The translations under genes and the position numbers were made by a program. This document shows, piece after piece, positions 47,208 to 61,517 of a stretch of 64,000 bases of DNA. Position 1 is the stretch's first letter. Each line of letters starts with the position of its first letter. The notes under the pieces are model-generated. The model was not told the origin of the DNA and made no database searches. It worked only from the letters and a program-made list of their open reading frames with translations. This stretch comes from a bacterium (lineage in GTDB: Bacteria; BMS3Abin14): assembly GCA_029210965.1 (NCBI GenBank), contig JARGFZ010000001.1, positions 124,001-188,000 on the forward strand, in the 5' to 3' direction.

Positions 47208-47345
47208 TCAGATATCTTTTACTGGAATGAGAACCGGACCCTGAGGTGTATCCTGTACAGTATACCCCAGTTCAGCTATCGCGTCTCTCAACTCGTCCGC
47301 CTTGGACCAATCCTTGTTGTTTCTCGCCTCGACTCGCTCCAGGGC
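47208..47345 (-). pseudogene. Remnant of a second cysS 3' end
   Basis: The last 46 codons of a cysteinyl-tRNA synthetase survive here: [20 protein letters not shown], then [20 protein letters not shown]. They match the C-terminus of the complete cysS next door ([34 protein letters not shown]) at most positions but use GC-richer codons. Upstream in the same frame the homology stops at about 47345 and the GATGCAAGG-family element follows. It has no start of its own and is not a functional gene. Confidence 0.8.
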
Positions 47346-47393
47346 CATGGCCTGGGAGGTTGAGTTGGATAATGCGGTGAGCGATAGCAGACC

Positions 47394-47456
47394 ATCTGCT
47401 GCGTTCTCGGTCGTCGGCAATCCTCGATCACGCCAACGGCGTGACGGCCTTGCATC
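47394..47456 (-). repeat. GATGCAAGG-family element, copy B
   Basis: Read on the minus strand: GATGCAAGGC, a perfect stem TCACGCC/GGCGTGA with 3-base loop, then TCGAGGAT, CGACCGAGAACG and AGCAGAT. The flanking motifs and their order match copy A at 1517-1601, while the central stem differs. It sits between the cysS remnant and the functional cysS stop codon. Confidence 0.65.
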
Positions 47457-47499
47457 TGACCCACTCTCCCTCACCTCAAAGTCAAAATCGCACGAATAG

Positions 47500-49050
47500 C
47501 TATTTTTTTATGAGCACTGCTATCGCACCTTGCGGAGTGTCCTGTACTGTGAATCCCAATTCAGCAATTTTGTCTCTTAATTCATCAGATAGTGCATAAT
47601 TTTTTTCTTCACGCGCCTTTTCCCGTTCTGCAATAAGTTCATTAACTTCTCTTGGGATGACATAACCTTCAGTCTTCATGCTCGCTGTCCCTGAAAAAGA
47701 AGTTTCTACTGAAAGAACTGTCCCTTTAGCGTGTGGCACACCTAATTGAACCGTGACATCTTGAATACCAAGAAACTTATGCCCCCAATCAATACCATCC
47801 TCAAACAATCCCAGTATTGAACCTACTTTTCTAAAAAAGGCATCAATTGTTTCGAACGCTTCTTTAGATACGCCCACTTGCGATTCTTCATCAGCTTTGT
47901 TCAGCATTGCGTTAACCAGAGGAATCGCTTTAAACAGATGACCAATTGCCCCCGCTGTGTTGAAATCGTCATTCATCGACTTGACAAATGAGGGTTCAAT
48001 ATCATTCGCAAAGGAATCCAGAACTTCCTTTTCATCGTCATTTGTTTCGCGGTTTTCTTGACCGATGCGCGCCATTCGCACAAACAGGTTGGCAAACTTA
48101 TTTAATCCTATTCGAGCTTTATCAAGAGCATCATCCGAGAAGTCCAAGGGACTTCGATAATGGGTTGAAAGAAGAAAAAACCGTACAACATCAGGATCAA
48201 ACTTTTCCAGCACCTCCCGGATGGTGAAAAAGTTACCCAGGGACTTGGACATCTTCTCGCTGTCGATATTTACGAAGCCGTTGTGCATCCAATAGCGGAC
48301 GAACTCTCTACCTCCCGCCGCCTCGGACTGGGCGATCTCGTTTTCATGGTGGGGAAAGATGAGGTCTTTGCCCCCGCCGTGGATGTCCAGAGGTTGGCCG
48401 AGGATCTCCGCAGACATAGCCGAACATTCAATGTGCCATCCCGGCCGCCCTTTGCCCCAGGGGCTGTCCCATTCGGGTTCACCCGGCTTGGAACTCTTCC
48501 ACAGCGCGAAATCCAGGGGGTTGACCTTCCTCTCGTCCACGTCGATGCGAGCCCCGGCCTGCAGATCATCCAGATTCCGTTTTGAAAGTTTTCCATACCC
48601 ATGGAACTTTTCAACTTCGAAGTAGACATCACCTTCCACCTCATAAGCAAACCCTTTGTCCACAAGAACCTTCACGATGGCTATTATCTGGGCCATATAA
48701 TCAGTGGCCCTGGGCTCCACGTCGGCCCTCTGCACCCCCAGAGCACCCATGTCGGTATCGTGAGCTTTGATGAAGGTCTCGGCCAGTTCCTTCCAGTGAA
48801 CGCCCTGTTCGTTGCTGCGGTTGATGATCTTGTCGTCAATGTCGGTGTAGTTGCGCACGTAAGTGACATCGTAGCCTGCAAACCGCAAGTAACGTGCAAT
48901 GACGTCGAAGGCCACAGACGCCCGCGCATGCCCTATATGGCAGTAGTCGTAGACGGTGACGCCGCAAGCGTACATGCCCACCTTGGGTGGGCTGATTGGT
49001 TTGAACTCTTCCTTTTTACCGGAAAGGGTATTGTAAACGCGCAGGGTCAT
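47500..49050 (-). CDS. cysS: Cysteinyl-tRNA synthetase (apparent recombinant gene)
   Basis: Charges tRNA-Cys in the cytoplasm. The 516-residue class I synthetase has HIGH at residues 38-41, KMSKS at 266-270, and the zinc ligands Cys29, Cys209, His234 and Glu238. It is somewhat longer than the usual 460-490. The 3' half (about 47500-48210, downstream of KMSKS) uses clearly AT-richer codons (many AAT, GAA, TTA, AAA) than the 5' half, and a remnant of another cysS 3' end lies just downstream, so the C-terminal half was probably replaced by homologous recombination. All catalytic residues come from the older half. ATG at 49050. Confidence 0.95.
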
Positions 49051-49156: not shown

Positions 49157-49522
49157 TCACGGCTGCGATTTATCGACTTCTACGATCTGTACCTTTGGAG
49201 AGATGATCAGGTTCAATGCCGATAACTGTACCAACAACGGGTTCAGAAGGCTTACTTCATAACGATATTCAGTGCCACCCTCAGTTAGAATGACAAAATT
49301 AATGGGATCGATGGAAAGATCGGGAGGTTCGAGGAATTCTCCTGTTTTTTCACCCTTTACGGTTAAATCGAGCAGAATCAGTTCTTTCCCCTGGTCATAG
49401 GCCTTTTGCTGAAATCTTGAATGATTCCACTGCCCCAATGCGACGAAAAGAAATATAACAAAAAGAAGTATGAAAAAATTTTTCACTAACAAATTCATAA
49501 TAATCTGGCTCTTTCTTTCCAT
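49157..49522 (-). CDS. Unidentified single-pass membrane protein
   Basis: I do not recognise this protein. From the ATG at 49522 it has 121 residues: a short cytoplasmic start (MERKSQIIMNLLVKN), one membrane segment (FFILLFVIFLFVALG) and a C-terminal periplasmic part with many beta-type residues (GGTEYRYEVSLLNPLLVQLS). A second Met eight codons later and a GTG 21 codons earlier are alternative starts; no clear ribosome site decides. Codon use is AT-rich like the 3' half of neighbouring cysS, so it may also be foreign. It lies between ispF and cysS. Confidence 0.5.
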   Translation of the reverse strand: MERKSQIIMNLLVKNFFILLFVIFLFVALGQWNHSRFQQKAYDQGKELILLDLTVKGEKTGEFLEPPDLSIDPINFVILTEGGTEYRYEVSLLNPLLVQLSALNLIISPKVQIVEVDKSQP

Positions 49523-49665
49523 ATTTTTGTTAGTGCCTCTGGATACCTGGCTGTGGAATACAAGATTTTGTCCTTCCACCGACACTCCGACACATCACAG
49601 TGAAACTTCCTCGACTTAGTCGCATTCGATGGTCCCGCTCCCTTAAGGCCGTTCAGAGTGCGTCA

Positions 49666-49756
49666 GATGCAAGGCCAGAGGGGTGAGGTAACCGGAGGTC
49701 CCGCCTGTGGCGGGATCGAGACCGCCGAACCCCGATAATCCCGCCATCGGCGGGAC
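49666..49756 (+). repeat. GATGCAAGG-family element, copy C, with extra GC hairpin
   Basis: GATGCAAGGCC, then a perfect TCCCGCC/GGCGGGA stem (49699-49716 region) followed by TCGAG, and a second TCCCGCC/GGCGGGA stem at 49740-49756. The right end of the element (GAGAACG...AGCAGAT) is not recognisable here. It fills the gap after the ispF stop codon. Confidence 0.5.
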
Positions 49757-49781
49757 AGGTGGCGTGCTATGGACGGCCGCA

Positions 49782-50264
49782 TTAAACCCTCTTTATCATA
49801 GCAACTGCATGCGCCGCCATCCCCTCCCCGCGTCCAACAAACCCCATCCCCTCACCAGTAGTAGCCTTAATGTTGACCGACCCTTCCGGCATCCCTGCGG
49901 CCTCGATGTTCACGATCATCTGACCGATGTGGGGGGCGATCTTCGGCTGTTCGGCTATCACGGTAATGTCCGCGTTCACTGGTTCATAGCCGTCTGATCC
50001 CAAAATGATAAGGACCTCCTTGAGCAGTTCGAGACTGTCGGCGTCTTTGTAGGCTTCATCCGTATTGGGAAAGTGCTGGCCGATGTCCCCTAACGCCGCT
50101 GCCCCAAGCAGGGCATCCATGAGGGCATGAAGCAAAACGTCCGCGTCGGAGTATCCAAGAAGACCTCTCTCCGCAGGGATGTCCACTCCGCCGAGGATGA
50201 GTTTTCGGCCCTCGACCAGGCGGTGCGAGTCATAGCCTATTCCCACACGTAGTTGGTCAATCAT
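49782..50264 (-). CDS. ispF: 2-C-methyl-D-erythritol 2,4-cyclodiphosphate synthase
   Basis: Fifth enzyme of the MEP route to isoprenoids. The 160-residue protein has GIGYDSHRLVEGR with the metal-binding Asp and His, GYSDADVLLHALMDALLGAA with the second metal His, FPNTDEAYKDADS, and KATTGEGMGFVGRGEGMAAH at the end. Trimeric zinc enzyme of the cytoplasm. ATG at 50264. It lies after ispD in the same direction, the common ispD-ispF pair, separated here by about 180 bases with word repeats. Confidence 0.97.
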   Translation of the reverse strand: MIDQLRVGIGYDSHRLVEGRKLILGGVDIPAERGLLGYSDADVLLHALMDALLGAAALGDIGQHFPNTDEAYKDADSLELLKEVLIILGSDGYEPVNADITVIAEQPKIAPHIGQMIVNIEAAGMPEGSVNIKATTGEGMGFVGRGEGMAAHAVAMIKRV

Positions 50265-59789: not shown

Positions 59790-60650
59790 CTACAGCTTGA
59801 ATTCCACCTTCAGCCCCAGGGCCGCTTCCCCATTATGCTCCAGCACCGGAACAAGAGTGAAGTTCGACCCCCTTCCCTTCCTTGAGCGGGCCACCACCGT
59901 CCTGCCGATGGCTGCTCCGAGAACAGAGCCCAGGAATACGTCGGAAGGCCAGGCATCCTGGTAGTAGAGTCGGCTGTAGGCAGTGCCGGCGGCGATCCCG
60001 TAGTAGAGCAGAGCCTCCAGGAACGGTTTTTCGTAAGAGAAAACACTGGCAACGGAAAAAATAAGTGAGGAGTTCATATCAGGCATGGAGCGGTACTTGC
60101 TGAACGGTTCAAAATCGAACGAGTCGCCGCTGTCTTCGGGTCCCTTGTGCCCGATCACGTATCCGGAACCAGCCGTGAACAGGGCTGTCATTGCGACAGC
60201 CTCAAGGCTTTCCAGAGAATTGGATTTCAGGTTTCTGCTGTCAAGGAAATAACCCAGGAGATAAAGCCCGGTAGTAATCTCGGGTATGTTCCGCCCGAGG
60301 GTCCTGAATCTATCGAACACATCGTCTGAACTCTCACTGCGGGTATCCGCGATGTTCTGCAAAAACTCCTCGTCATTGTTCACCAGGATCAGGGTGCCTA
60401 ACAGGGTCAACCCCGTAATCGCTGTTCCCCTGGGAGTCAACCGTACCGGGGAAGAGAGGATGTGCCTGAGGTCCCCATCGATCTTATCCATGATCATCTC
60501 GAAAGCAGGATCGAGGTGCTGAACCTCGTCCGACGGCTCCAGGATCCTGAGCTGCCGATCCGGCTCCTCTTCTGACTGGGCGTGAACCTGCGGGACCATT
60601 ATCCCGAAACATACCCAGACTAGAAAGATAAAGCGCGCCATCCGGCTCAT
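59790..60650 (-). CDS. PAP2-like protein with lost catalytic residues
   Basis: A 286-residue protein with a signal peptide (about 1-24, ending VHA-Q) and the C-terminal layout of type 2 phosphatidic acid phosphatases. Motif 3 reads SRLYYQDAWPSDVFLG (226-241): Ser, Arg and Asp are kept but the catalytic His is Ala233. Motif 2, normally PSGH, reads PDMN (190-193), so the second His is also lost. Motif 1 is vague. It is therefore probably not a phosphatase; it may bind lipids or support envelope structure. The chain ends in a possible beta strand (LGLKVEFKL). The ATG overlaps the stop of the DUF502 gene (ATGA). Confidence 0.75.
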   Translation of the reverse strand: MSRMARFIFLVWVCFGIMVPQVHAQSEEEPDRQLRILEPSDEVQHLDPAFEMIMDKIDGDLRHILSSPVRLTPRGTAITGLTLLGTLILVNNDEEFLQNIADTRSESSDDVFDRFRTLGRNIPEITTGLYLLGYFLDSRNLKSNSLESLEAVAMTALFTAGSGYVIGHKGPEDSGDSFDFEPFSKYRSMPDMNSSLIFSVASVFSYEKPFLEALLYYGIAAGTAYSRLYYQDAWPSDVFLGSVLGAAIGRTVVARSRKGRGSNFTLVPVLEHNGEAALGLKVEFKL

Positions 60651-61333
60651 GAGGCGCCTTCCTTGGGATCTTCCTCTTCCAACCTGATGATGCTTTTTTC
60701 CAGGGCTTCCTTCAATGCCGGGATCTTTTCTTCTTCACCCGGCATTATCACGCCCGCGGAGATGATGACCCTGAACGCCTCATCCACTGTCCAGTCCAGG
60801 GTGATCGCTTCTTCCTCCGGCACTACGAGGAGAAATCCGGAGGTCGGGTTGGGCGTGGTGGGTATAAAGACCGTGTAGGAGCGGGCCGGTATATGTTTTT
60901 CAAACTGCCCGATGGCTTCCCCGGTGATGAAGCCAATGCTGTAGATACCCTTTCGCGGATACTCCACGAGGATGGCCCTGCGAAAGCTGTCCTGCCCGCT
61001 TATGAAAATAGCTTCCAGGATCTGTTTGGAGGAAAAATAGAACCAGCGGAGCAACGGGATCTTCTCCAGTATCTTCTCACCCGTGTTGAGGAATTTACGT
61101 CCCGCAACGTTGGCAACCAAGGCGCCGATTACAAATATGATGGAGACTGTAAGGATCAGGCCTAGCCCCGGGATATTGAAACCCAGGAGATTCTCCGGTC
61201 GATACACCGGCGGAATGAGCCGGAGTGCCCTGTCGGTCCACCTCATGAGGGTGAGTAATACCCACCCTGTAAGGAACAGGGGGCTCAGTACCAGAATCCC
61301 GGTGAGCAGGTATTTCTTAATGGTGATTCTCAT
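60647..61333 (-). CDS. DUF502 family membrane protein
   Basis: I set the start at the ATG at 61333 (MRITIKKYLLTGILVLSPLF), giving 228 residues; the upstream open frame is word repeat. Two membrane segments are clear (about 8-30 and 55-80), followed by the DUF502 pattern: EKIPLLRWFYFSSKQILEAI and YPRKGIYSIGFITGE, FIPTTPNPTSGFLLVVPEEE. The family is widespread in bacteria and plants and has no firmly known function. It overlaps the PAP2-like gene by four bases, so the two are likely translated together. Divergent from groES. Confidence 0.85.
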   Translation of the reverse strand: MRITIKKYLLTGILVLSPLFLTGWVLLTLMRWTDRALRLIPPVYRPENLLGFNIPGLGLILTVSIIFVIGALVANVAGRKFLNTGEKILEKIPLLRWFYFSSKQILEAIFISGQDSFRRAILVEYPRKGIYSIGFITGEAIGQFEKHIPARSYTVFIPTTPNPTSGFLLVVPEEEAITLDWTVDEAFRVIISAGVIMPGEEEKIPALKEALEKSIIRLEEEDPKEGAS

Positions 61334-61517
61334 GATGAGCGACGAGGCTCCTTGCAAAGGGTGATCCGTAGATCCAAAAGATCCTTCCCGTTGTCGGGTC
61401 CCATTTAACAACAACTCGAAAATTGAAACTTGAAACCCTAAACTCTTATATTCTATGAAACCGCAACCATGTTTACAAGAGTAGATGGACAATATACAAA
61501 AAAAACACTTTAAACAC

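Follow-up and report, generated by a model that had tools for sequence, protein, structure and literature searches.

The window analysed here, a 64,000-nucleotide stretch of contig JARGFZ010000001.1 (positions 124,001 to 188,000) from a BMS3Abin14 bacterium, contains an unusual locus for cysteinyl-tRNA synthetase (CysRS, encoded by cysS). Read along the minus strand, ispF comes first, then a small AT-rich gene, cysS, a gap of 144 bp, a fragment of a cysS tail, and rlmB. Gene names were assigned from Pfam and NCBIfam matches. The features of the locus are as follows:

49782-50264, minus strand: ispF (Pfam/NCBIfam)
49157-49522, minus strand: small AT-rich gene without a Pfam or NCBIfam match
47500-49050, minus strand: cysS, a chimera of 516 residues
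48200-49050, minus strand: host-derived part of cysS, residues 1 to about 283 (catalytic domain with HIGH, zinc ligands and KMSKS), delimited by identity, GC3 and tree
48200-48229, minus strand: 5' crossover zone, the codons for FTIREVLEK, with the breakpoint best placed at 48200-48212 (maximum chi-square, GC3, block alignment)
47500-48200, minus strand: foreign part of cysS, residues about 284 to 516 (helical bundle, DALR_2, long disordered linker, CysS_C), delimited by identity, GC3, tree and Pfam
47477-47499, minus strand: AT-rich 23 nt separating the repeat from the foreign stop codon, probably from the donor
47371-47476, minus strand: dispersed intergenic repeat of about 106 nt with GATGCAAGG (copy alignment, genome matches)
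47356-47370, minus strand: 15 nt between repeat and remnant, with the 3' join at 47355/47356 (start of the alignment to G001 and G002)
47208-47355, minus strand: remnant, the final ~49 codons of the former host cysS (identity to G001 and G002, PF23493)
46350 to about 47089, minus strand: rlmB (Pfam/NCBIfam)

The flanking rlmB has 90.5% nucleotide identity to that of G001, a genome from the same genus, so the cysS locus is the native one. At this locus, both G001 and G002 carry an intact cysS of single origin. The genome has one cysS plus the tail fragment, and further copies are absent. The AT-rich small gene encodes a protein with a hydrophobic N-terminal segment. A preliminary description of this DNA had noted that this gene too is AT-rich; we rejected it as part of the foreign tract, as it is kept directly upstream of cysS in G001, G002 and G006 and is native.

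The two parts of cysS have different origins. Residues 1-279 are 97.5% identical in amino acid sequence to G001, 90% to G002 and 89% to G006 (the host-derived part is 90.2% identical to G001 at the nucleotide level), whereas the last 237 residues are 42% identical to both G001 and G002. For the foreign part the best amino acid identity is 49%, to G011 from another genus of the same family, and loci outside the family reach at most 35%. A maximum chi-square scan against G001 placed the breakpoint at residue 284 (window 48200) with a chi-square of 298.5, compared with at most 17.4 in 2000 permutations and 34.0 in a G001-G002 control. The nucleotide match to G001 is 92% before this residue and 53% after it.

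Base composition changes at the same place. GC and GC3 are 0.552 and 0.70 in codons 1-282 versus 0.413 and 0.33 in codons 283-516, and the 3' half is thus AT-richer than the 5' half, as had been noticed beforehand. GC values for the two parts in relatives are 0.57/0.57 (G001), 0.58/0.59 (G002) and 0.51/0.56 (G011). When the 56 long ORFs of the window were scanned for GC3 change points, the best split in cysS was codon 281 with a log-likelihood ratio of 36.2 (8.6 for the next-best ORF); no other compositional break in the window is as strong as this drop. Identity, GC3 and the chi-square scan together bear out the earlier proposal that cysS is chimeric. The second-strongest GC3 change point, far weaker than that in cysS, lies in 60647-61492, where GC3 is 0.38 in the first 48 codons and 0.70 in the rest; a wrong start codon may account for it. 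An apparent second chimera, in the cysS of G004 (L066; 86% identity with a sudden loss), was rejected because the assembly has an N run there.

Phylogenetic trees also separate the halves, as anticipated. In the N-half tree the sequence joins G001 within the family (support 99, starred). The C-half tree, built from nine usable relatives plus the query, groups the query with the family (all ten together, support 96/94, starred) and outside the nine other members; the inner node that makes it sister to them has support of 92/93, unstarred. Constraining the C half to pair with G001 was rejected (p-AU 0.00056), as was placing it with G001, G002 and G006 (p-AU 0.0019), while placement with genus g6 (G011 and G007) was not rejected (p-AU 0.165). 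Because the C half branches as sister to all nine relatives, we infer that the donor was probably an unsampled, more AT-rich, deep branch of the same group. The donor is absent among 12 genomes of the phylum. A search of 84,980 species genomes did not reveal it either; the best matches there were at most 35% identical, in a short-peptide-pattern scan that may miss moderately close donors and did not list the family members at 42-49%.

The fragment downstream of cysS is the host's own cysS tail. The preliminary description had recognized a second cysS tail of 46 residues at 47208-47345; this tail is real, and its homology begins three codons earlier, at 47355. The remnant matches CysS_C (PF23493, E 9e-8) and has 91.5% amino acid identity to the C terminus of G001 (47 aa) and 85% to that of G002. 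At the nucleotide level it is 92.4% identical to G001 over 47226-47356. Across 42 codons there are seven synonymous and three nonsynonymous differences from G001 (dS 0.30, dN 0.03); by the same measures the N half of cysS has dS 0.40 and dN 0.012. Because two tail copies stand side by side, a tandem duplication of the tail followed by fast divergence of the 3' half in one lineage could be imagined. We consider this extremely improbable: the remnant falls with the host genus and is only 58.5% identical to the present CysS C terminus (versus 62-91% to other genera), as the preliminary description had foreseen for a tail that is not a recent duplicate. Moreover, protein, synonymous sites and GC all change abruptly at one point, and the tree rejects membership of the C half in the genus.

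The state of the remnant bears on the timing of the swap. Had selection been absent from the fragment ever since the lineage separated from G001, some ten or more amino acid changes would be expected on the query branch. Its few changes imply either that the swap is recent relative to the species split or that the fragment is still useful. We favor a recent swap since the remnant is nearly undecayed; the donor half, whose composition is still unameliorated, points the same way.

The two joins differ in character. The 5' join falls just past KMSKS with the reading frame kept, in a region where family members share runs of ~15-25 bases around the FTIREVLEK codons. The breakpoint falls on equivalent codons in the two gene types, as expected for the homologous junction of homology-facilitated illegitimate recombination (HFIR). 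On the 3' side, alignment to G001 and G002 starts abruptly at 47355/47356, corresponding to G001 codon ~439/440; this codon is unrelated to the end of the foreign part. As judged from the recipient sequence, the 3' join looks illegitimate, without evident homology. The homologous recombination in the KMSKS region that was originally proposed therefore applies to the 5' join, just after KMSKS, and apparently not to the 3' join. Between the joins, ~155 host cysS codons (about 465 bp) are missing at the locus, and the replaced segment occurs nowhere else in the genome (its sole match lies inside the chimera). Thus the old 3' half was mostly deleted and not only displaced, which modifies the earlier view that it had been pushed downstream: this holds for the last ~49 codons, and the other ~155 are gone.

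A chimera of this kind could in principle be produced by the assembler if reads from two co-occurring relatives were wrongly joined. The genome is a draft of 157 contigs and no amelioration is visible in the donor half, as might be expected in that case. We nevertheless regard wrong assembly as unlikely, given that two separate wrong joins would be needed, leaving and re-entering one locus of a 298-kb contig. The first of these would have to be in frame, at a place where the gene types of the family share no long identical stretch. Furthermore, the true host middle is absent from an assembly that is 99% complete, and no N runs were found.

We instead conclude, with a probability of about 0.8, that a functional-looking chimera arose through recent horizontal exchange, with a homologous crossover at the 5' side, a join lacking evident homology at the 3' side and deletion of host DNA. 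Less firmly, we favor a single HFIR event as the route; HFIR characteristically depends on RecA and shows micro-homology of a few bases where the DNA is illegitimately joined. A donor fragment carrying the 3' half of cysS from the unsampled AT-rich lineage would have recombined with the resident gene, first by crossover in the short conserved stretch after KMSKS (48200-48229), which kept the frame. The other end, in the intergenic DNA downstream of the donor gene, would then have been joined inside the resident gene at codon ~439/440, deleting about 465 bp of host cysS and leaving the last ~49 codons as the remnant. The genome encodes ComEC- and DprA-family genes, making DNA uptake possible; such genes also occur in bacteria that are not known to be transformable.

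The same end product could be reached in two steps, a possible but less probable route. Here, a circular or longer donor piece would integrate by a single crossover in cysS, giving the order host 5'-donor 3' followed by donor 5'-host 3', and a later deletion would span the DNA from the donor 3' end to the host tail. The repeat at the deletion edge would be a plausible deletion-prone site. On the other hand, no donor 5' half or vector genes were identified in the 144-bp gap or elsewhere, and two events would be needed although the remnant has decayed little. A third route would be that an element supplied a new 3' end for cysS on inserting there through its integrase, and was later lost; this is very unlikely. 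Such sites do typically show a new tail in place and the old one farther downstream, and phage 21 and e14 in icd are examples of insertion elements that bring their own gene tail. However, the old tail should then start where the new one does, and here 155 codons are missing. The gap is also too small for an integrase or element genes, the new tail differs by 58% in protein sequence from the expected host tail, and no relative of the donor half was detected on any IMG/VR viral contig.

The 144-bp gap consists largely of repeat sequence. An GATGCAAGG element was originally described between the two cysS ends; it is present, and is part of a dispersed repeat of ~106 nt. Matches to the repeat number 12 in this genome, and 10 of the 12 genomes of the family also have matches. 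The repeat core, GGCCTTGCATCTGAC, was counted 12 times at one mismatch or fewer (reversed control, 0). Copies of ~106-140 nt have conserved ends (AAGGTG... and ...CACCGCAT) and a variable middle, and further copies occur in L018, L019, L180, L181 and L182. The element at 47371-47476 has no Rfam match, and a structured RNA in the spacer was rejected (fold z-score -0.06, no Rfam family). Being carried family-wide, the repeat is no guide to whether donor or host supplied it; its probable source is normal intergenic sequence of the donor, together with the adjacent 47477-47499, which has no match to G001 or G002. The presence of a dispersed repeat within the 3' junction makes repeat-mediated steps conceivable. 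It is improbable that the repeat took part in the exchange as a shared landing site; if it did, such repeats would let distant members of the group swap gene tails, including those of essential genes.

Between ispF and the small gene, positions 49655-49676 hold a partial inverted copy of the dispersed repeat. With 47446-47467 this forms a 22-nt inverted pair, which we rejected as a transposon boundary: it is dispersed-repeat sequence with no transposase between the two arms. The interval between ispF and the small gene (about 49530-49780) seems ~165 bp longer than in G002.

Several known systems resemble this locus. HFIR is known from naturally competent species and has also been seen in E. 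coli conjugation; incoming DNA is joined by homology at one end and illegitimately at the other, where recipient DNA is lost (PMC3240628). Like those cases, cysS has one homologous join, another that looks illegitimate, and recipient DNA lost there. HFIR is known from laboratory transformation and conjugation; in the present case it is deduced from the scar left in the genome, within an essential housekeeping gene, and the donor was divergent and the homology short. HFIR has also been proposed for Vibrio effector genes with shifted 3' ends and for Rhs loci (PMC5361080). As in the C-terminal displacement of Rhs, CDI and T6SS loci with orphan 3' ends (PMC5361080), a constant 5' part has received a new 3' part and the old end lies downstream. 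Unlike those loci, cysS encodes a core enzyme without a toxin or immunity gene or diversifying selection, and it leaves just a short, non-functional-looking tail. None of ispF, rlmB and the small gene beside cysS is a recognized toxin or immunity gene by Pfam or NCBIfam. By analogy, the cysS case appears to work like Rhs/T6SS C-terminal displacement and is not a member of that class.

Mosaic genes such as penA (PMC10926701) are similar in that an ortholog segment replaces part of a vertically inherited gene. These usually show clean two-sided homologous replacement between close species, without a remnant; in cysS, by contrast, a remnant is still present and the donor half shares just 42% identity with the host half expected there. 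Events of this type are known. The cysS case stands out for how clearly its scar can be recognized, for the essential nature of the gene and for how distant the donor half is. Narrow word searches, with incomplete coverage of the literature, returned no published CysRS case of this kind. The locus provides a well-preserved natural record of a tail swap in an aminoacyl-tRNA synthetase, with the two joins, the deleted middle and the residual tail all recognizable. It shows that CysRS can combine a catalytic domain and an anticodon-binding half from lineages that are about half identical in the exchanged part. The case is also a caution against relying on whole-gene cysS trees, which can mislead, and the chimera itself points to an unsampled AT-rich relative of the group.

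The chimera is presumably the working CysRS of the cell, charging tRNA-Cys, because it is the only cysS in the genome. The predicted protein matches TIGR00435 over its full length (556 bits versus a cut-off of 340). It retains the HIGH and KMSKS signatures and the invariant Cys and His residues (invariant columns kept: C29, H38, G40, C209, H234, H235, E238, K266, M267, K269 and S270). PF09190 (DALR_2) was identified at residues 355-417 and PF23493 (CysS_C) at 465-507. An AlphaFold model has a mean pLDDT of 87 and a pTM of 0.79, with both C-terminal domains folded confidently; the only disordered part is the donor linker of 32 residues (431-462). In this model the crossover falls after the catalytic domain, between helices 277-283 and 286-294.
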